In this document: in pieces, positions 21,631 through 36,749 of the stretch
Layout of the letters: each line of letters opens with the position of its first letter
How positions within the stretch are numbered: the stretch's first letter is position 1
IMG/VR virus record: IMGVR_UViG_3300047497_000064
Coordinates: 1-36,749 of that record
Strand: one strand, 5' to 3'
Source of the DNA: a virus
DNA length: 36,749 bases
The notes under the pieces: model-generated
What the model saw: only the letters and a program-made list of their open reading frames with translations
Database searches by the model: none
Told to the model about the DNA's origin: nothing
Position numbers and translations under genes: made by a program

Positions 21631-23189
21631 TGTCGCTTCCTCCTGTGGCTCTCAACATCGCTCCCGCGCCGGCGCCGAACACGCCGTTGCAGCAGTACGA
21701 CCAGGCGATGACCGTGCAGACCCTGATCAACCAGGCCGCACTGCAGAAACAACAGCAAGAGGCAAACGTCATCAAGCAGCAGCAGGCGCAGCAGGAGCTG
21801 GCCCAGCAGCAGATCGCCACGCAGCAGGCGCAGCAGGCGCAGAAAGACCAGGCGGCGCTGCGGAAGGCTTACGCGGATTCCGGCGGCGACATGGACAAGC
21901 TTTTCCAATCCCTGCCGAGCTACGGTGTCAGCCCGCAAACCGTCGCGCAGCTGCAGAAGGAGCACTTCGGTGCCATCGAGTCGCTCTCGAAAATGCACAA
22001 GGCGCAGATCGATGTGCTCGACGGCAAAAATAAGTTGATGGGCAACGCGGCCAACGCGATGCTCGCCGTTTCGGACCAGCCGGCCGACGTGCAGCTCGCC
22101 GAGCACAATAAACAGATCAACGCGCTAAAGCTTTCCGGGCAGTTCAGTCCGGAGGAGCTCGCGCAGATCCCGAATCGTCCGCTTTCCGTACCGGAATTGA
22201 AAGCGCTGCAGGCGCACGCGCTCACCGCGGACCAATACATTACCCAGGCGCGGGAAAAACAGGAGCAGGATGCGACGTTGCCCGGCAAAGTTGCGGAATC
22301 CGGCATCAAGCAGGCGGAGCTCGATCAGCTGCAGAAAGGCCTGCCGGTTGGCACCACGCTCGATGCCCAGGAGGCGCGCTCCTGGATGCAGCAGAATCCC
22401 GGCAAAACCCTGGCGGATTACGGGAAGTACAAAGCCACCCTCGTGCCGGCGTTCAACTTCAATCTCGCCGGCGGCGCGAATGGCGGCCTTAGCCAGGCGG
22501 CGATCGACCAGCAGGCCGACAATTACTTCGCGACCGGCAAACTTCCGCCTGTAGGCCGCGGGCCCGCAGGTCTCGCTCTCACGCGACAAATCATGCAGCG
22601 CGCGAGCGAACTCCATCCTGGGAGCCTGGCAGAGGGATCGGCTGAATACGCCTCGAACAAAAAGTCGCTGGAGGGTTTGCAGAAAAACTTCGACCAGGTA
22701 ACGGCGTTCGAGAATACGGCGCTTAAGAATCTCGACCAGGTCGCTGCCGCTGGCGCGAAGGTTCCGGATCTTTCGGCTCGTTTCGCCAACGTCCCGGTCC
22801 GTATGATTTCGTCGCAGATGATCGGTACGCCCGAGATGGCGGCGTTTAAGACGGCATTGCTGACGGCACAAACGGAAGCGGCCAAAGTGCTGAGCAGCTC
22901 GAATGCGAGCGGAGTGTTGTCGGACTCCGCTCGTCACGAAGCACAGGAAGTGCTCGACGGCAACTTGCCATTCCCTGCAATGATGGCCTCGATCAATCAG
23001 CTGAAAACGGATTTTGGCAATCGGCACGAGTCGTATGCGAACCAGATCGCCGACATCCAGAAGCGGCTCGGCGCGAAGGGTGGCGGCACGGCGCGGCCAG
23101 CCGGCGCGACGCACACCGGCATCGGCAGCGTCGACAAAAAGAAGCATTGGCTGGATGCCAACGGAAACGACCTGGGGGTAGCTGAGTAA
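21630..23189 (+). CDS. Ejection-region virion protein (519 aa), Gln-rich coiled coil
   Basis: TAATG overlap with the previous gene. Residues 20-75 are a striking Gln/Ala coiled coil (QKQQQEANVIKQQQAQQELA...), followed by long helical and low-complexity regions and a basic, Gly-rich end. Position second in a three-gene block after a gp7-like gene suggests the gp20/gp16 role (internal ejection protein), as in P22-like phages. Sequence-level homology is not recognised. Confidence 0.65.
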   Translation: MSLPPVALNIAPAPAPNTPLQQYDQAMTVQTLINQAALQKQQQEANVIKQQQAQQELAQQQIATQQAQQAQKDQAALRKAYADSGGDMDKLFQSLPSYGVSPQTVAQLQKEHFGAIESLSKMHKAQIDVLDGKNKLMGNAANAMLAVSDQPADVQLAEHNKQINALKLSGQFSPEELAQIPNRPLSVPELKALQAHALTADQYITQAREKQEQDATLPGKVAESGIKQAELDQLQKGLPVGTTLDAQEARSWMQQNPGKTLADYGKYKATLVPAFNFNLAGGANGGLSQAAIDQQADNYFATGKLPPVGRGPAGLALTRQIMQRASELHPGSLAEGSAEYASNKKSLEGLQKNFDQVTAFENTALKNLDQVAAAGAKVPDLSARFANVPVRMISSQMIGTPEMAAFKTALLTAQTEAAKVLSSSNASGVLSDSARHEAQEVLDGNLPFPAMMASINQLKTDFGNRHESYANQIADIQKRLGAKGGGTARPAGATHTGIGSVDKKKHWLDANGNDLGVAE

Positions 23190-25360
23190 TGCCAGGCCCG
23201 CAACAGCAGACGTTCACCGACGTGACGCCGGTTCAGACGTTCCTCAACGTCACGCCCGTCGACCAGGATCAGGAATCGCCCGAGCGGCTGCGCGCGCGGA
23301 TCAAGGCCGCAATGCCCGACGCGCCGGATTTGCTCGTAAATTCCATCCTGAAAAACCCGGACGATCCGCGCTATCGCAAAATTCTTGCAGCGGTTCCTGA
23401 AAAGCAGACCGACAACACCGGCGTCTGGTCCGGCGTGCGATCGGCGCTGCCTTCGGCCGGGGATGTTGTGAAGTCCGGAGCAGCTGCGGCCGCGACTGGT
23501 GGGCTTTCGCTGGCCTACGACACTGGTAAGACGTTGTACGACGCTGCTCGCAACGCGCCGGCAAATTTCCGCACCGGCGCCGCGAACATCCGCGCGATCG
23601 AGCCGGAAGCGACAGACGCACTCGGTCGCGTCAATTCGGCTGTCGATCAGGCGATCGGTGGCACGGCGAGCGCTTTCGGTCCGCTCGTGGGCGTCAATCC
23701 CCAGAGCATGGCTGAACGTGCGTCGCGTGGCGATACCGCGGGAATTCTCGGGGAAGCGGCTGTTCCGGCGGCACTCGCCGTCGGTGGGCAAGCCGCGGCC
23801 GAGGGGCGAGCTGCACTGGGTGAACGAGCTGCGTGGAAGCCTGGCGGCTCGAAATTCATCGGACCGCTTCCTGAATCCGCGGAAAATCTGCAGGCTCACG
23901 CGGATCTCAAGCACGCGATTCCGGCCACGAAGTCCACGCCGTACACCGACGCCGATCTGCATACGGCAAAACCGTTTCTCTACGACGAGCACCGCACCAG
24001 TCCGATCAAGAGCGTCACCGACGTTCGCGACGCGGCGGATGCGGCGATCGGCAAGATCGAGGATCACGTCGCAGACCGCATCGGGCAAATTCCGGACGAT
24101 CCCATTGCGACAAATCCCAGGGCCGACGTACAAAGGGCCCTCAGCAGCAGCCCGCGCGGGCAGAAATTCGTGGACGCCGGCATGAAGGAGCTGGAGGGCC
24201 TGAACCTCGACGATCCGACGGTTTCAGAAGCGGACGCCATCCGCCGGCAGCTCAACGCCGAAAATAAAGCGGTCCTCAAAAAGAACAACTACGACATCGA
24301 TACCGCCAGGCGCGCGGATGCTGGATTTGCTGCGCGTGAAGCGGCCGCGGAGTCGCTTCGCAACGGCATTTACGATCAGCTCGAACTCCGTGGCATCGAG
24401 GGCGTGCAGGGCCTCCGCCAGGCGGAAGGCTCGGTCATCAGGATTCGCAACGCCGCGCAGAATCAAATTTTCAACGGCGACAAAGCGGTGCGCGCCTCCG
24501 CACCGACGTCCGTCGCGCAATCGACGGCCGCGGAACTCGCGAAGCTCGGCGGAACGATGGCGGGCGCGCACGTCGCAGGCCCGGTGGGCGCGGTTGTGGG
24601 CCGGAACGTGGCTGATATCGCCGCGCGCGCTATCAAACCCGAGGCCCTGACGCGCGACGCGCTTATCGACCGCGCCTTTCAGAACATGGACGTCGAGCCC
24701 GTTCGCTACTCGACGATCAACCTGCAGGCTTTGCCGGCGAAGGAAGCGCGCCCGGGAACGCAGTGGAGCATGATCTCCGACGAAGTTGCGCCGCAGGGCG
24801 GCCTCTTCGATATCCACCAGTCGACGCCCTATGAGAATTTCACTCCCCAGGAGAAGGCCAACATCCAGGCCGTGCGCGAGCGGCCGTACCAGAAAGTACT
24901 CGACGACCCGAACGCGACGCTGTTGCAAAAGGCTCAAGCGAAATTCGAGCTGGCGAAGATGGCCACTCCTCAAACCGCGTCGGCCGCTGCTGCCTCACCC
25001 GCTCCGCCCGCTCTGCGGGGCGGTCCTTCGGATTTCTACTCCCTGGACCCTGAACCGGAACCGGAATACGAACAGGGGCCGGTGAAAACGGCATATCGAG
25101 TGCGCAGTCAGGGAGACGAGGGAATTTCAATCGGAGAAGGAGATCATGCGCACGCCACGTCGACGCTCGAAGATGCGCAGCGCTTATTGCCCGGACGGAA
25201 GGCGATTTACGGCGGCGAGCCACAAGAGATCGTTAAGATTGATCTCTCGAAACATAAACCCGGGATCGACTACCATGTCATTCCGCGCCGCGGTCAGCCG
25301 GCGTGGATACGCATGCTGCGACCATTTTCAGAAGACGAAATTGATCCATTGAAAGAGTGA
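23189..25360 (+). CDS. Large ejection-region virion protein (723 aa)
   Basis: Third gene of the ejection block, TAATG overlap. N-terminal disordered part, Ala/Gly-rich helices (VVKSGAAAAATGGLSLAYDT...), a helical centre (VSEADAIRRQLNAENKAVLK...), a membrane-like AELAKLGGTMAGAHVAGPVG, and a globular C-terminus (VKTAYRVRSQGDEGISIGEG ... QEIVKIDLSKHKPGIDYHVI) that could be a separate small enzyme-like domain, not identified. The size suits a gp16-type ejection protein. Bases 24374-24433 are the apparent source of the 60-base segment in the fibre-domain triplication junctions. Confidence 0.7.
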   Translation: MPGPQQQTFTDVTPVQTFLNVTPVDQDQESPERLRARIKAAMPDAPDLLVNSILKNPDDPRYRKILAAVPEKQTDNTGVWSGVRSALPSAGDVVKSGAAAAATGGLSLAYDTGKTLYDAARNAPANFRTGAANIRAIEPEATDALGRVNSAVDQAIGGTASAFGPLVGVNPQSMAERASRGDTAGILGEAAVPAALAVGGQAAAEGRAALGERAAWKPGGSKFIGPLPESAENLQAHADLKHAIPATKSTPYTDADLHTAKPFLYDEHRTSPIKSVTDVRDAADAAIGKIEDHVADRIGQIPDDPIATNPRADVQRALSSSPRGQKFVDAGMKELEGLNLDDPTVSEADAIRRQLNAENKAVLKKNNYDIDTARRADAGFAAREAAAESLRNGIYDQLELRGIEGVQGLRQAEGSVIRIRNAAQNQIFNGDKAVRASAPTSVAQSTAAELAKLGGTMAGAHVAGPVGAVVGRNVADIAARAIKPEALTRDALIDRAFQNMDVEPVRYSTINLQALPAKEARPGTQWSMISDEVAPQGGLFDIHQSTPYENFTPQEKANIQAVRERPYQKVLDDPNATLLQKAQAKFELAKMATPQTASAAAASPAPPALRGGPSDFYSLDPEPEPEYEQGPVKTAYRVRSQGDEGISIGEGDHAHATSTLEDAQRLLPGRKAIYGGEPQEIVKIDLSKHKPGIDYHVIPRRGQPAWIRMLRPFSEDEIDPLKE

Positions 25361-25478
25361 TCGTTCCGTCATCGTTCAGTTCATGACCCGGGCAGTCTGG
25401 AATCCCGCAAAAACATTGCGATTCGATATCGACTGCATCAGCTGCCGGCTGGGCGCCTTCCAGGATGTGGGAGTTCAT
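25278..25478 (-). CDS. Small minus-strand protein (66 aa)
   Basis: Opposite to its surroundings. Its ATG (25478) overlaps the stop of the minus-strand gene upstream (25475-25477), so the two form a coupled pair. It has CFCGIPDCPGHEL, a compact Cys/His cluster, and LSMDQFRLLKMVAACV. Its 3' end overlaps the end of the ejection gene by 83 bases, so the last part may not be constrained. Confidence 0.5.
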   Translation of the reverse strand: MNSHILEGAQPAADAVDIESQCFCGIPDCPGHELNDDGTITLSMDQFRLLKMVAACVSTPADRGAE

Positions 25479-25867
25479 TGCACCGCGACCTTCTCGACGA
25501 TCGGCAGGGAACGATCTTTTCCGGAATCGTCCCGCACATGCAGCCGGCCGCCATCGACGTAAACCTGAGTTTTCCCGTGAATGGTGAGGTCTAGTCTATG
25601 CCAGTTTTTCATGGGGTTGAAGGCTAAAACATACACCGTTGTAGACGTCCGGAGCGTGTAGTATGTCGTGTACACGCCAACCGAAATGCCGCTCCCATAG
25701 GCGTTGACAGAGTTCCCGGTCGCATAGGCGTTGGCATTGGCCGTCGAATAGGTTCCCACGCGCTGCGAGCCGATCGAAACGACCGTGGCGTCCTGCCACT
25801 CTTTGTGTTTTGCGAAGCACGGCACCGCGATCGCGAGCGCCACCAACAAGGACAGTAGGGTTTTCAT
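25475..25867 (-). CDS. Secreted protein of unknown function on the minus strand (moron-like)
   Basis: 130 residues from an ATG at 25867, preceded on the minus strand by GGAGGA with a good spacer. Clear Sec signal peptide: MKTLLSLLVALAIAVPCFAK. The mature part starts HKEWQDATVVSIGSQRVG, contains a Tyr/Ser/Asn-rich stretch and ends with IHGKTQVYVDGGRLHVRDDS, a pattern I have seen in uncharacterised bacterial (including acidobacterial) secreted proteins. As the only minus-strand cassette in the genome, placed within late genes, it looks like an acquired extra gene acting in the host envelope, for example in superinfection exclusion; that is inference. Its first 12 codons are repeated twice downstream in the triplication. 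Confidence 0.7.
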   Translation of the reverse strand: MKTLLSLLVALAIAVPCFAKHKEWQDATVVSIGSQRVGTYSTANANAYATGNSVNAYGSGISVGVYTTYYTLRTSTTVYVLAFNPMKNWHRLDLTIHGKTQVYVDGGRLHVRDDSGKDRSLPIVEKVAVQ

Positions 25868-25890
25868 CGGTATTTCCTCCTGGAGATAGC

Positions 25891-26352
25891 ATGACTCGTT
25901 TAGCACGTCACATCAATGGAACGATGGTCCCAGTGCGTCAAGTACTAGCGACGCTCTGGGTACTTCTCGTTTTGTTCGCCCTGCCTGCTGCTGCACAGGT
26001 CCAGCCTGCCCCTTTCATGCCCTTGCAGCTCCTCGATAACAACGGGCGGCCGATCGCCGGCGGTTGTGTCTTCACCTACGTCTCCGGAACGACCACCCCG
26101 CTGGCCAGCTATAGCGATGCCGCCGGCATGGTGCTTAATGCGAATCCGGTCATCCTCGATTCCGCCGGGCGAGCGCGCATTTTCCTCACTGCGGCCGCCT
26201 ATACCCTAAAACTCGTGACGCAGGGCGGCGTGAATTGCGCTTCGGGGGTGGCGGTCTGGACGATCGAGATCAGCTCGAAGCCCGTGGCATCGAGAGCGTG
26301 CAGGGCCTCCGCCAGGCGGAAGGCTCGCGAGCGCCACCAACAAGGACAGTAG
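25891..26352 (+). CDS. Truncated tail-fibre N-terminal domain, copy 1
   Basis: 153 residues: signal-like hydrophobic segment (residues ~15-36, ending LPAAAQ), then the domain PFMPLQLLDNNGRPIAGGCV, FTYVSGTTTPLASYSDAAGM, NPVILDSAGRARIFLTAAAY, widely found at the N-terminus of podophage fibres/tailspikes as the virion-attachment domain. After WTIE the frame runs into the 60-base foreign segment and ends in a basic tail (KPVASRACRASARRKARERH) read from the wrong frame. It lacks any receptor-binding part. GGAG at 25882-25885 is a usable ribosome site, so a short product could be made. Confidence 0.7.
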   Translation: MTRLARHINGTMVPVRQVLATLWVLLVLFALPAAAQVQPAPFMPLQLLDNNGRPIAGGCVFTYVSGTTTPLASYSDAAGMVLNANPVILDSAGRARIFLTAAAYTLKLVTQGGVNCASGVAVWTIEISSKPVASRACRASARRKARERHQQGQ

Positions 26353-26361
26353 GGTTTTCAT
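26339..26361 (-). pseudogene. Duplicated signal-peptide start of the minus-strand gene (unit 2)
   Basis: The triplication copies the ribosome site and first codons of the minus-strand secreted protein. In units 2 and 3 (ATG at 26361 and 26855) the frame leaves the gene after about MKTLLSLLVALAS and enters the foreign 60-base segment, so only a truncated peptide could result. The same arrangement recurs at about 26833-26855. Confidence 0.55.
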
Positions 26362-26384
26362 CGGTATTTCCTCCTGGAGATAGC

Positions 26385-26846
26385 ATGACTCGTTTGGCAC
26401 GTCACATCAATGGAAGGGTGGTCCCAGTGCGTCAAGTACTAGCGACGCTCTGGGTACTTCTCGTTTTGTTCGCCCTGCCTGCTGCTGCACAGGTCCAGCC
26501 TGCCCCTTTCATGCCCCTGCAGCTCCTCGATAACAACGGGCGGCCGATCGCCGGCGGTTGTGTCTTCACCTACGTCTCCGGAACGACCACCCCGCTGGCC
26601 AGCTATAGCGATGCCGCCGGCATGGTGCTTAATGCGAATCCGGTCATCCTCGATTCCGCCGGGCGAGCGCGCATTTTCCTCACTGCGGCCGCCTATACCC
26701 TAAAACTCGTGACGCAGGGCGGCGTGAATTGCGCTTCGGGGGTGGCGGTCTGGACGATCGAGATCAGCTCGAAGCCCGTGGCATCGAGAGCGTGCAGGGC
26801 CTCCGCCAGGCGGAAGGCTCGCGAGCGCCACCAACAAGGACAGTAG
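26385..26846 (+). CDS. Truncated tail-fibre N-terminal domain, copy 2 (mosaic)
   Basis: Same architecture and length as copy 1 with its own start and ribosome site. Left-hand marker bases (26396, 26416, 26418, 26517) agree with copy 3; right-hand ones (26634, 26645, 26745) agree with copy 1. It is therefore a recombinant of the two, with the switch between 26517 and 26634. Ends in the same out-of-frame basic tail. Confidence 0.7.
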   Translation: MTRLARHINGRVVPVRQVLATLWVLLVLFALPAAAQVQPAPFMPLQLLDNNGRPIAGGCVFTYVSGTTTPLASYSDAAGMVLNANPVILDSAGRARIFLTAAAYTLKLVTQGGVNCASGVAVWTIEISSKPVASRACRASARRKARERHQQGQ

Positions 26847-26878
26847 GGTTTTCATCGGTATTTCCTCCTGGAGATAGC

Positions 26879-28114
26879 ATGACTCGTTTGGCACGTCACA
26901 TCAATGGAAGGGTGGTCCCAGTGCGTCAAGTACTAGCGACGCTCTGGGTACTTCTCGTTTTGTTCGCCCTGCCTGCTGCTGCACAGGTCCAGCCTGCCCC
27001 TTTCATGCCCCTGCAGCTCCTCGATAACAACGGGCGGCCGATCGCCGGCGGTTGTGTCTTCACCTACGTCTCCGGAACGACCACCCCGCTGGCCAGCTAT
27101 AGCGATGCCGCCGGCATGGTGCTTAATTCGAATCCGGTTATCCTCGATTCCGCCGGGCGAGCGCGCATTTTCCTCACTGCGGCCGCCTATACCCTAAAAC
27201 TCGTGACGCAGGGCGGCGTGAATTGCGCTTCGGGGGTGACGGTCTGGACGATCGACGGCATCAACCCGTCGGCCAATTCGGTTCTTGGGACCAACAATAC
27301 CTGGACCGGGACCAACGACTTCACGAACGCCACCACCTTCGACGGTTCTGCGCAGTTCAACGTGGGACTCACATCGGAAGGTCCGAATGATCTCACCGGC
27401 GGCGGGGAGTTGACCGGGACCTGGACCGGTTCGCCGATCTTTTCAGGCACGCCGAATTTTACCGGCGGCATCATGGCCACGACCGGGACGTTTTCCGGCC
27501 AGGTCACCTCTACGGTGACGACGGGCACGCCGCCGTTTGTCATCGCTTCGACGACCGAAGTGCCGAATCTGAACGTTGCCGAGCTCGAAGGCTGCACGTG
27601 GGAAGTGCCATGCCACCTTGGCTCGACGACGCCGAACGCAGTAGATGCGACGGTGCTCAATGCGCACACCAGTTTCGAGCTGAACGGCTCTACGGTGCAG
27701 ACCGGCATTCAGGGCACGGACACCAGGCTGATGACCGCCGGCACGGTCGCCTCTGGCGCCGGTCATTCTCTTTGCACGGACACTGCTGGCGGCGCCACCA
27801 CCAGCGGCTGCAATAGCAGCGGCTTTACGCAAATCGAAGCGGTGAAGAAAACCAGCGGGAATTGCACTACGACCAGCAGCTCCTACGATTCCTGCACGGA
27901 TTCGCTGACCTGGCCGACGGCGTTTGCCGACACAAATTATGTGGCTGTCTGCGGAGGCTTGAACACAGCGACAGCCGGCGACGGCAGCTCCAACAACGCC
28001 ACGACGCTGACGACGGATACATATTCGACGAGCGGGTTGACGGTGTTTACGCAGACGCAGCGCGGCGCCACTGGAACATTTACCGAGATCCACTGCATCG
28101 GGGTGCACCCGTGA
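26879..28114 (+). CDS. Tail fibre / receptor-binding protein (full-length)
   Basis: 411 residues; the intact third copy. Order: hydrophobic signal-like segment (VLATLWVLLVLFALPAAAQ), the fibre/tailspike attachment domain (LLDNNGRPIAGGCVFTYVSG ... NPVILDSAGRARI ... VWTIDGINPS), a Thr/Gly-rich shaft (TWTGTNDFTNATTFDGSAQF...), and a C-terminal domain of the form NCTTTSSSYDSCTDSLTWPT, FADTNYVAVCGGL, QTQRGATGTFTEIHCIGVHP that resembles H-type-lectin-like receptor-binding tips. It would decide host range. The signal segment before a fibre domain is unusual. Confidence 0.8.
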   Translation: MTRLARHINGRVVPVRQVLATLWVLLVLFALPAAAQVQPAPFMPLQLLDNNGRPIAGGCVFTYVSGTTTPLASYSDAAGMVLNSNPVILDSAGRARIFLTAAAYTLKLVTQGGVNCASGVTVWTIDGINPSANSVLGTNNTWTGTNDFTNATTFDGSAQFNVGLTSEGPNDLTGGGELTGTWTGSPIFSGTPNFTGGIMATTGTFSGQVTSTVTTGTPPFVIASTTEVPNLNVAELEGCTWEVPCHLGSTTPNAVDATVLNAHTSFELNGSTVQTGIQGTDTRLMTAGTVASGAGHSLCTDTAGGATTSGCNSSGFTQIEAVKKTSGNCTTTSSSYDSCTDSLTWPTAFADTNYVAVCGGLNTATAGDGSSNNATTLTTDTYSTSGLTVFTQTQRGATGTFTEIHCIGVHP

Positions 28115-28509
28115 GAACGCCTGTGGCGATTGCGCTGGTTTGCCTGCTGACTCTTTTCGTTTTGTATCTCCTGCCGGCTGCCGCCCAGGAGCAGAAGCTC
28201 GACGCGCCCAAACCTCTTGACGATGCGACGGCCTTGGCGGTGCGCAACGCGCAGCACGCGGTGGAAAAGGTTGCCGCACAGCTCTCGTGGATCCGCGAAC
28301 GCTACAAAGAGCACGAATTGGCCATGGCCCAGCTGGACAAGAAATACGCCGAGCTGCATGCCCAGCTCGATGCCGCGCAGAAGGATCTCAGTAAGGCGAG
28401 CGCGGAGGCATTTCTGAAGAGCGGAGCGGATCCTGCGAAATATCAGCTGGACCTCGAGGCCTTGAAGGTTGTCGAGAAGTCCAAAACCGCAAACGGGGCG
28501 CGTCCGTGA
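28111..28509 (+). CDS. Membrane-anchored or secreted coiled-coil protein (132 aa)
   Basis: GTG 28111 overlaps the fibre stop. Hydrophobic N-terminus (VAIALVCLLTLFVLYLLPAA, then AQEQK) serving as signal peptide or anchor, then a ~90-residue coiled coil (AVEKVAAQLSWIRERYKEHE, LAMAQLDKKYAELHAQLDAA...). The layout resembles an inner-membrane spanin or a fibre-associated trimeric helix; there is no partner gene to decide. Confidence 0.65.
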   Translation: MRTPVAIALVCLLTLFVLYLLPAAAQEQKLDAPKPLDDATALAVRNAQHAVEKVAAQLSWIRERYKEHELAMAQLDKKYAELHAQLDAAQKDLSKASAEAFLKSGADPAKYQLDLEALKVVEKSKTANGARP

Positions 28510-29081
28510 AAAAAATGCTGGTCGGTTTGCTGCTACCGCTATTGGGCTCGGTCGCCCAGGCCCAGATCACGCCCCCTCCGGTCTGGCAATGGGGCGGCAA
28601 CATCACCGCGGCAAATTCGAACTGCATTGTCACCGCCTGCGTTTCTGAATAGGGCGGAAATACCGGATTCACGATTGGTGCGGGAACGACCCTGGTGGCC
28701 GATGGCCACAGTGTTCCCGGAATCTGCACGGGCACGGTCACAGCGTCCACCACGATCGATCTGTTCTATCCCGGCAGTTCGGCAGCCGGCGCGACGTGCG
28801 CGAATACCACGACCGGCGTCGGCGTTCCAGTCGCGACCGGCCGCACACTCTCGAATCTAAACGTCAGTGCTGGCAGTGCTTGCGTTTCTGGCGGGTGCAT
28901 CGTTCACGTCGTTGTGAACGGCTCGAACTCGACGCTCACCTGCACGATTAGCACGGCGACGAGCTGCGCGGACACCACGCACACGGTCTCGATTTCCTCA
29001 CCTTCGCTCGTGTGGATCACGGTCACCGGCGGTGCTGCGGAGACCGGCGCAAATATCTCGGCCATTGTCGACATCACTTAA
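28506..29081 (+). pseudogene. Secreted beta-rich protein interrupted by an in-frame amber codon
   Basis: GTG 28506 overlaps the previous TGA. The frame gives a signal peptide (MKKMLVGLLLPLLGSVAQAQ) and 48 residues, then TAG at 28650-28652, then continues without shift for 142 residues (GGNTGFTIGAGTTLVADGHS ... ISAIVDIT) to a stop at 29079-29081. Composition does not change across the TAG, so this is one 191-codon gene with an amber codon: a nonsense mutation, a base-call error, or programmed read-through. A restart at GTG 28695 could make the C-terminal part alone. TAG is used as a normal stop elsewhere (for example 7979, 10306, 10724), so genome-wide recoding is unlikely. Confidence 0.7.
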
Positions 29082-29093
29082 AAGGGGAAAACC

Positions 29094-29555
29094 ATGAAGA
29101 AAGTATTTCTCGCGCTGGCACTCGTGTGTGCCTTCACCGGCGTTTCGCGCGCGCAGACGACTACCGCCACCGGCACCATGCCGGCGCAGGTGGTGCTCAG
29201 CTGGCAGGCTCCGGCCGTTGTCGCCGGCGTCTCTGCGCCGACGAGCTACACGGTTTACCGCGAGACCGCGCCAAACAATGCGGCGACGAACTCCGGCTGC
29301 TATTTTCCCGGCACCACGGGTACTGGACCGGGCTGCCTCACAGTCACCGGCTGCGTCGCCATCACGGTGCTCACCTGCACCGACAATCCCGGCGTGGGCA
29401 CCTGGTATTACGTGGTGCGCTCCAACAACGCGCAAGGGCAGAGTCCGGATTCGAACGAGGTGCAGGTGATTATCAGCGCGCCGAAGCCCACGGCTCCGAA
29501 CGCGCCAGCCTCGCTGACGGTCACGGTGACGGCATGCGCGGGAAGCTGCCAGTAG
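29094..29555 (+). CDS. Secreted fibronectin type III-like protein (153 aa)
   Basis: AGGGGA precedes the ATG. Signal peptide MKKVFLALALVCAFTGVSRA with QT at the mature start. The body is one Fn3/Ig-like sandwich: VVLSWQAPAVVAGVSAPTSY, TVYRETAP, GTWYYVVRSNNAQGQSPDSN, EVQVII, followed by a Pro/Ala tail. Four Cys in the middle could form disulfides, which fits export. Fn3-like domains are common on phage surfaces and bind carbohydrate weakly. Confidence 0.75.
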   Translation: MKKVFLALALVCAFTGVSRAQTTTATGTMPAQVVLSWQAPAVVAGVSAPTSYTVYRETAPNNAATNSGCYFPGTTGTGPGCLTVTGCVAITVLTCTDNPGVGTWYYVVRSNNAQGQSPDSNEVQVIISAPKPTAPNAPASLTVTVTACAGSCQ

Positions 29556-29812
29556 GTCGCTTCGTTCTCCCAGACGACCCGCTGGCCTTTGTCGTGCACA
29601 GGTTTCAGAAGTTCTCGGTAGCCGTGGAGATCCGGGCGATGCGCTCCACGACTGACCAGGATTTGCGAGAGAGGCAAGCAATGGGGAAGGCAGGGACCGC
29701 AAGCCGCAACAAAAACGTTTCTGGCGCTACGCAAGGCGGCATGACGATGGGAGGCGTCCTGGCGGTTTCGTAAGGCTTCTCTCGCAAACGGACCAAGGGG
29801 GATTAACGACAC
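29556..29812. other. 257-base gap before the lysis genes, one weak small ORF
   Basis: A 30-codon frame at 29681-29773 (MGKAGTASRNKNVSGATQGG..., with GAGG 6 bases upstream) is the only candidate on the + strand. Long minus-strand frames here give no recognisable protein. No promoter or terminator is evident. Confidence 0.4.
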
Positions 29813-35020: not shown

Positions 35021-35800
35021 ATGAGCTGGCAGGCCGTGACGTGGGTATTAGAGCGTTCAGAGGCGACGTTGGGGGCGAGGTTGGTTCTTCTTTCGATTGC
35101 GAGTCATGCGAATCGGGATGGGCGCGAAGCGTATCCAGGCCTGCGTACGATCGCCCTGGAATCTCGGCTTTCGCGTAGCCAGGTCATCCGGTGCGTCCGC
35201 ACTCTGGAGGAAGCGGGCGAACTCCTAGTACTTCGTGGGCATGGCCGCAACAATGTGAACCAATACCGACTGCCGCACGTTTCTGAGTGGCTAAAAGGTA
35301 GCAGGATGGAACCTTTTCGCGAGACCGAAAAGGTGTCAAAAGGTAGCAGGATGGAACCTTTTTGCGAGACCGAAAAGGTGTCATTTAAGCCCGGAAAAGG
35401 TCGCATCCATGACACCCGAACCGTAGGAACCGTAAAACATAACCCCCCTGTAGTCCCCCCAAGGGGGGACGAAACCCAAACTTTCCACAGTTCGGAGCCT
35501 TTCCACAGTTCGGAACCTTTTTGCGAGACCGAAAAGGTGTCATTTAAGCCCGGAAAAGGTCGCATCCATGACACCCGAACCGTAGGAACCGTAAAACATA
35601 ACCCCCCTGTAGTCCCCCCAAGGGGGGACGAAACCCAAATTTTCAGTTGGTCCGGCCAGCATGTCGAGGTCGAGATGGGGCGGCGCCGCCGGCTGCCTCG
35701 TCTCGATGCCTACGCCGGTTCGAGAGCGGAAGACGTGGTGCAGTTCCTTGAGCGACAAGGCTTCGAATCCAGAATTTTGGCGCGTGGTGCAGTTCCTTGA
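35021..35800 (+). CDS. Helix-turn-helix replication-initiator-like protein
   Basis: 259 residues; AGGGGG is 6 bases before ATG 35021. The N-terminal ~85 residues form a winged-helix domain of the helix_turn_helix_36 type: SEATLGARLVLLSIASHANR, AYPGLRTIALESRLSRSQVI, RCVRTLEEAGEL, as in phage and plasmid replication initiators (lambda O-like layout). The middle (residues ~90-207) is built of nested in-frame repeats of 15, 53 and 6 residues and looks unstructured. Codons here may serve as DNA sites rather than protein, as iterons do inside lambda O. The C-terminus (LDAYAGSRAEDVVQFLERQG) is altered by a 49-base tandem duplication. Confidence 0.7.
   Translation: MSWQAVTWVLERSEATLGARLVLLSIASHANRDGREAYPGLRTIALESRLSRSQVIRCVRTLEEAGELLVLRGHGRNNVNQYRLPHVSEWLKGSRMEPFRETEKVSKGSRMEPFCETEKVSFKPGKGRIHDTRTVGTVKHNPPVVPPRGDETQTFHSSEPFHSSEPFCETEKVSFKPGKGRIHDTRTVGTVKHNPPVVPPRGDETQIFSWSGQHVEVEMGRRRRLPRLDAYAGSRAEDVVQFLERQGFESRILARGAVP
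35293..35639. repeat. Nested iteron-like repeats inside the initiator gene (candidate origin)
   Basis: Three repeat orders: 45 bases twice (35293-35337, 35338-35382; 1 mismatch), 128 identical bases twice with period 159 (35353-35480, 35512-35639), and 18 bases twice (35482-35499, 35500-35517; 1 mismatch). All periods are multiples of 3. Within them AAAAGGT occurs seven times (35293, 35328, 35338, 35373, 35395, 35532, 35554) and its inverse ACCTTTT three times (35311, 35356, 35515), giving three identical inverted pairs with a 10-base spacer. Two copies of an 8-bp G/C hairpin (35453-35470, 35612-35629) are included. Confidence 0.9.
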
Positions 35801-35832
35801 GCGACAAGGCTTCGAATCCAGAATTTTGGCGC
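35735..35832. repeat. Exact 49-base tandem duplication at the end of the initiator gene
   Basis: 35735-35783 and 35784-35832 are identical. 49 is not a multiple of 3, so the frame changes and the protein ends RGAVP instead of AQ followed by TGA in the single-copy form. The second copy is effectively intergenic. Confidence 0.95.
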
Positions 35833-36191: not shown

Positions 36192-36749
36192 ATGGCAAAG
36201 CGGATCACCAAGCTGACGGAAGAACAGGAAAAGCGCCTGGTCGACGTGCGTAGTGAGTGGCTTTCAATCGGCTACAGCACCGCGCCCGTCGATCGATCTG
36301 AGGCGACCAAGGTCATCGGCGAATTTTATTCACGGATTGGCAAACCCAAACCGGCGGTGATGTTTTTCTCTTCGCCGATGATGTGCATTCTTGCTTGGGG
36401 AGCGTTAAAGGCCCTGGCTGGAAAAGAATCAAAGCAGCTCTGGTCGCAGCTCGAGTCGCAGCTCGAGTCGCAGCTCGAGTCGCAGCTCGAGTCGCAGCTC
36501 AGGTCGCAGCTCGAGTCGCAGCTCTGGTCGCGGCTCTGGTCGAAGCTCGAATCGCAGCTCGAGTCGCAGCTCTGGTCGCGGCTCGAGTCGCGGCTCGAGT
36601 CGCAGCTCTGGTCGCAGCTCGGATCGCAGCTCGAATCGCAGCTCGAATCGCAGCTCGAATCGCAGCTCGGATCGCAGCTCAGGTCGCAGCTCTGGTCGCA
36701 GCTCTGGTCGCAGCTCTGGTCGCAGCTCGAATCGCAGCTCAGGTTGCAG
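36192..36749 (+). CDS. DUF6745 protein, N-terminal domain and start of repeat array (5' part)
   Basis: ATG one base after the previous stop. Residues 1-81 form the N-terminal domain: [56 protein letters not shown], matching what I recall of DUF6745 N-termini (LT-x-EQ ... R-x-EW ... G-x-ST-x-P-x-DR). From residue 82 (36435) the tetrapeptide repeats begin, 26 units to the contig end. It continues without a frame break at base 172. Confidence 0.85.
36435..36749 (+). repeat. 12-base coding tandem array (right part)
   Basis: Twenty-six consecutive units of cag-ctc-NNN-tcg, in frame with the DUF6745 gene, running off the contig end. Variation is concentrated in the third codon (TGG, GAG, GAA, AGG, GGA) with occasional changes in the first (CAG/CGG/AAG). 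Confidence 0.95.
36579..36749. repeat. Right copy of 171-base terminal direct repeat
   Basis: Matches 1-171 except for T at 36705 versus A at 127. See the left copy. Confidence 0.9.

Follow-up and report, generated by a model that had tools for sequence, protein, structure and literature searches.

The window, a 36,749-nucleotide viral contig, carries three head-to-tail copies of a 494-bp unit at its tail fibre locus, the last of which runs on into a full-length fibre gene. We assign a probability of about 0.68 to its being a genuine tandem array in the fibre gene of a podovirus resembling P22 and Pam1, produced by a template switch, divergence of the copies, and then unequal crossing over. 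The best reading of the array is that of a recent and mainly non-adaptive recombination product, in which unit 3 is the working gene.

Structure of the tandem array

The three units start at positions 25831, 26325, and 26819 on the plus strand with a constant spacing of 494 bp, share ~98–99% identity, and together span 25831–27255. Unit 1 (25831–26324) and unit 2 (26325–26818) are homologous to unit 3 (26819–27255) in only the first 437 bp of each, and both end in the same junction with an inserted segment. Seven positions (1.6%) of the common 437 bp distinguish unit 1 from unit 3. The four markers on the left (25902, 25922, 25924, and 26023, and their equivalents) read A, C, A, and T in unit 1 and G, G, G, and C in units 2 and 3, and the three on the right (26140, 26151, and 26251, and their equivalents) read G, C, and G in units 1 and 2 and T, T, and A in unit 3. 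Unit 2 is hence a mosaic, agreeing with unit 3 at the left markers and with unit 1 at the right ones, and has one switch point, located between 26517 and 26634 in a stretch of 116 bases (26518–26633, plus strand) that is the same in all units. The chance of a single switch from unit 3 to unit 1 among seven free markers is 6/128. The initial annotation had read the three units, the seven markers, and the interval of the switch correctly, and had interpreted the mosaic as the middle unit expected of unequal crossing over between two two-copy arrays; the single switch and its predicted polarity support that interpretation. Because positions 26024–26633 are repeated exactly at 26518–27127 (610 bp), short reads are unable to fix the number of middle units, and three is the minimum. 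A diversity-generating retroelement or a phase-variation switch was also considered and rejected, as the repeats are direct and no adenine bias is seen among the seven substitutions that distinguish unit 1 from unit 3.

Phage identity and gene context

The phage can be classified as a podovirus of the P22/Pam1 type based on its genes for a portal (phrog_156), a scaffold, a P22-like major head protein (phrog_283), a head-closure protein (phrog_578), and a DNA-ejection protein (phrog_598). The closest coat proteins in cellular genomes come from an Acidiferrales MAG, an Acidobacteria MAG, and Acidicapsa dinghuensis, and the host of this soil phage is therefore probably a member of the Acidobacteriota. 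Upstream of the array, an ORF of 723 aa (23189–25360, plus strand) likely encodes an ejection protein, an assignment made by position only; phage PBR31 likewise encodes its fibre downstream of the ejection-protein region.

Between this ORF and the fibre lies a divergent minus-strand gene (25475–25867), encoding a 130-aa protein with a signal peptide, whose ribosome site, start codon, and first 12 codons are part of the repeat unit, so that its start region has been carried into units 2 and 3. Only 23 bp separate the start codons of the divergent gene and of the first fibre ORF (25867–25891), and the two ribosome sites overlap within a near-palindrome, TCCTCCTGGAG. A search for relatives of the divergent gene returned none, and a promoter scan found no sigma-70-like site.

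Fibre ORFs and the head-binding domain

The intact fibre gene (26879–28114, plus strand) encodes 411 aa comprising a signal peptide, a head-binding domain, a shaft, and a C-terminal part. Over residues 43–139, the protein aligns with the Pam1 tailspike head-binding domain (7eeq, E 1.8e-9), and there is a further match to 9vyg. The short ORF of unit 1 (25891–26352, plus strand; 153 aa) and that of unit 2 (26385–26846, plus strand), which has the same architecture, consist of the signal peptide, the head-binding domain up to one residue short of its last conserved aspartate, and 27–28 foreign residues resulting from out-of-frame reading into the insert and the first bases of the unit that follows. 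The GGAG ribosome-binding motif and the start codon are the same in units 1, 2, and 3. In a fold comparison using an AlphaFold model of the unit-1 product, the head-binding domains of Pan3, Pam1, and P22 were among the best matches; the models are of low confidence (pLDDT 62 for unit 1 and 52 for unit 3), and we do not claim that the shortened domain folds. Judging chiefly from the sequence match, which carries most weight, the N-terminal domain of the fibre is a tailspike head-binding domain of the P22/Pam1 type, and is predicted to bind to the tail or portal vertex. These data agree with the original assignment of the triplicated region as a fibre attachment domain, of which the first two copies keep their starts and ribosome sites and lack a shaft and receptor tip. 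The locus differs from those of Pam1, Pan3, and P22 in the extra truncated copies and in a Sec-like signal peptide preceding the domain, a feature shared with related Acidobacteriota phages.

Templated insert and proposed order of events

The last ~57–60 bp of units 1 and 2 are a copy, with 57 of 60 bases identical (95%), of positions 24374–24433 on the same strand, within the 723-aa ORF. The insert occupies 26268–26327 in unit 1 and 26762–26821, with the same source, in unit 2 (both plus strand). At its right edge, it overlaps the start of the following unit by 3 bp (TCG), and its left edge shows zero overlap. The presence of this 60-bp segment at the junction points to a tandem duplication with a templated insertion as the founding event; from these junction sequences, the first duplication would be a template-switch tandem duplication with a short templated insertion and little or no breakpoint homology. 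The initial annotation, sound with respect to the crossover, had missed this insert, which reveals how the first duplication arose. Relatives of the source gene, sought to polarise the three mismatches between insert and source, were not found in viral contigs, the single weak match (in G008) falling outside the copied segment.

The following order of events can be proposed. A copying error would have doubled ~437 bp containing the start of the divergent gene, the fibre signal peptide, and the head-binding domain, with copying jumping briefly to a site ~1.9 kb upstream and leaving the 60-bp templated insert at the junction. The two copies may then have diverged by seven bases, and unequal crossing over within the 116-bp identical stretch would have generated a middle unit whose left half stems from the last unit and whose right half stems from the first. 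The entire fibre gene would have been retained in the last unit, the two upstream ORFs being by-products that are perhaps translated and probably do little.

Further short tandem duplications are located at 35293–35383, 35353–35644, and 35734–35832. They form a cluster of near-identical repeats (45 bp twice, 133 bp at a spacing of 159, and 49 bp twice, respectively), suggesting that this genome is prone to tandem duplication.

Authenticity of the array

A mosaic middle unit is predicted alike by unequal crossing over and by a loop in the assembly graph, and the choice between them hinges on the k-mer length of the assembly. If the true genome had two units, an assembler circling twice through a loop at the 116-bp stretch would create a false third unit with exactly the observed mosaic structure. 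The switch falls in the longest stretch shared without a mismatch by units 1 and 3 (116 bp, followed by 99, 98, and 71), just where it would also fall if the assembler had looped at a k of 100 to 116, and the resulting 610-bp exact repeat exceeds any k-mer. The contig ends, however, fit a larger k. Positions 1–126 are identical to 36579–36704, followed by a SNP and 44 further identical bases. Related contigs of the same collection have end overlaps of 127 bases (G004 and G009) or of 126 (G010) and 127 (G012) exact bases beside a SNP, and contig ends made by metaSPAdes share maxK, as reported by COBRA (PMC10914622). Taken together, k was most probably 127. The marker pair flanking the switch in unit 2 spans 118 bp, which fits within one 127-mer; the recombinant link should then exist as an observed k-mer and be real. 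An assembler working at a lower k would probably have treated the marker differences as bubbles and collapsed them. This end fingerprint makes a graph artefact, the chief concern of the initial annotation, unlikely, and the two-unit duplication with its insert would hold regardless of the third unit.

The routes to an artefact that remain are a wrong inference of k and a chimera formed during library amplification. It is conceivable, though considerably less probable than the graph loop, that library preparation joined two co-existing phage strains and that the array is present in no genome: the contig is a population consensus with a SNP between its two ends, divergence amounts to 5% between the insert and its source and to 1.6% between unit 1 and unit 3, and a PCR chimera between units could make the same marker link. 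Such a rare product, however, would have low coverage and normally be removed, the same insert junction occurs twice and is flanked by markers of both types, and the independent short duplications elsewhere in the contig suggest a duplication-prone genome. The exact insert junction was absent from the viral collection searched, in which near-identical records may be hidden, and no second independent assembly of the phage was found.

With regard to the contig ends themselves, the overlap amounts to 171 bp with a single SNP at base 127, and the assembled genome looks circular and cut inside a repeat array. Arrays of 12-bp tandem repeats (SQLx repeats) occupy 1–510 and 36434–36749, with a reading frame continuous across both ends.

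Comparison with related phages

Among 12 records reached via the coat protein, 11 gave a fibre match. Each of these has one fibre gene with the head-binding domain, except for G012, which has two separate diverged genes. A broader survey covered 87 loci with the domain, the window among them, and three of the others have two copies, in separate ORFs of 302 and 1062, 304 and 650, and 652 and 667 aa. Where a relative has two such genes, both are full-length. Near-identical cut-off copies were found neither in the 11 fibre-matching relatives nor in the other loci of the 87-locus set, and the fibre domain had no match in the bacterial and archaeal genome collection. The multi-fibre phages L006, L098, and L099 have two tandem genes each beginning with the same domain, but their copies are old and diverged, each with its own long C-terminal part, whereas those of the window are ~98–99% identical and cut off. 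In another phage group, the head-binding domain occurs in stand-alone proteins of ~152 aa, with a C-terminal part of ~63 residues that is missing from units 1 and 2. At L042 (3989–4447) and similar loci, such a protein is encoded upstream of larger fibre or lyase-like genes and is possibly an adaptor.

Repeated tandem duplications have evolved inside the tail-fibre gene of the Enterococcus phage EfV12-phi1, resembling the present array in their location and varying copy number (PMC6365445). In that phage, a single fibre is extended by in-frame repeats of 1.8 kb situated upstream of a predicted carbohydrate-binding domain, and the repeats arose only under host coevolution or host resistance (PMC6365445). 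In the present array, by contrast, it is the N-terminal anchor that recurs, in short ORFs of its own and with foreign sequence inserted at each junction, and nothing here indicates such selection.

Function of the short products

The short products might instead be functional, by occupying tail sites, adjusting the number of fibres, or acting in the periplasm via their signal peptides. All copies have retained GGAG–ATG starts and open frames, the domain extends to within one residue of its last conserved position, and head-binding domains of this family do occur alone upstream of larger genes in other phages. Those stand-alone proteins, however, have the ~63-residue part lacking here, the C-terminal residues of the short products derive from the out-of-frame insert and the next unit's start, and the 11 relatives with a fibre match all lack such copies. 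Of the seven changes separating unit 1 from unit 3, four are nonsynonymous (5.1 expected), showing no significant purifying selection, with seven differences being too few for power. A functional array thus appears improbable, and the roles initially suggested for the first two copies (decoys, dosage modifiers, or a substrate for fibre swapping) are not supported, given the signal peptide on the short products, the lack of significant purifying selection, and the lack of a relative with such copies. In view of the out-of-frame tails and the absence of conservation, it is simplest to regard the upstream copies as by-products, with unit 3 supplying the working gene.

Sec-like signal peptides of the fibres

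A hydrophobic segment followed by A/S/G/C–Q directly precedes the head-binding domain in all 12 fibre matches from the 11 relatives, as well as in the window's own copies. The arrangement was judged by eye to be that of a Sec signal peptide. The corresponding region is 26879–27000 in the window, and is represented in the relatives by loci L186–L197, including a related phage region in the genome of Acidicapsa dinghuensis, a cultivable source of such a fibre gene. The signal peptide is absent from Pam1, PBR31, L006, and the marine-type group represented by L042. A Sec-like signal peptide is unexpected on a protein assembled onto cytoplasmic virions, and a literature search found nothing on signal peptides before such virion-anchoring domains. 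Three more ORFs downstream of the fibre (28112–29560) also begin in a signal-peptide-like manner (MRTPVAIALVCLL..AAAQ, MKKMLVGLLLP..AQAQ, and MKKVFLALALV..SRAQ). A much bolder prediction, to which we give very little credence, is that the fibres are truly exported by Sec and the short units are exported, envelope-acting domains whose dose is set by recombination of the array; if so, the exported domains could serve as a decoy or in superinfection exclusion, for example by blocking tail sites on incoming virions.

Biological implications

The array is probably the outcome of a known kind of mutation, and a new working system is improbable. It nevertheless offers a natural snapshot of duplication at a fibre locus, with the junction as the probable trace of a template switch and the middle unit as that of a subsequent crossover. 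Other phages have tandem fibre paralogues of this gene family. The overlaps at contig ends can also reveal the k of an assembler, which helps to distinguish true mosaics from loops in the graph. Of greater importance, perhaps, are the unexpected signal peptides on this clade's fibres, which raise the question of how a protein with an export signal reaches a capsid built in the cytoplasm.
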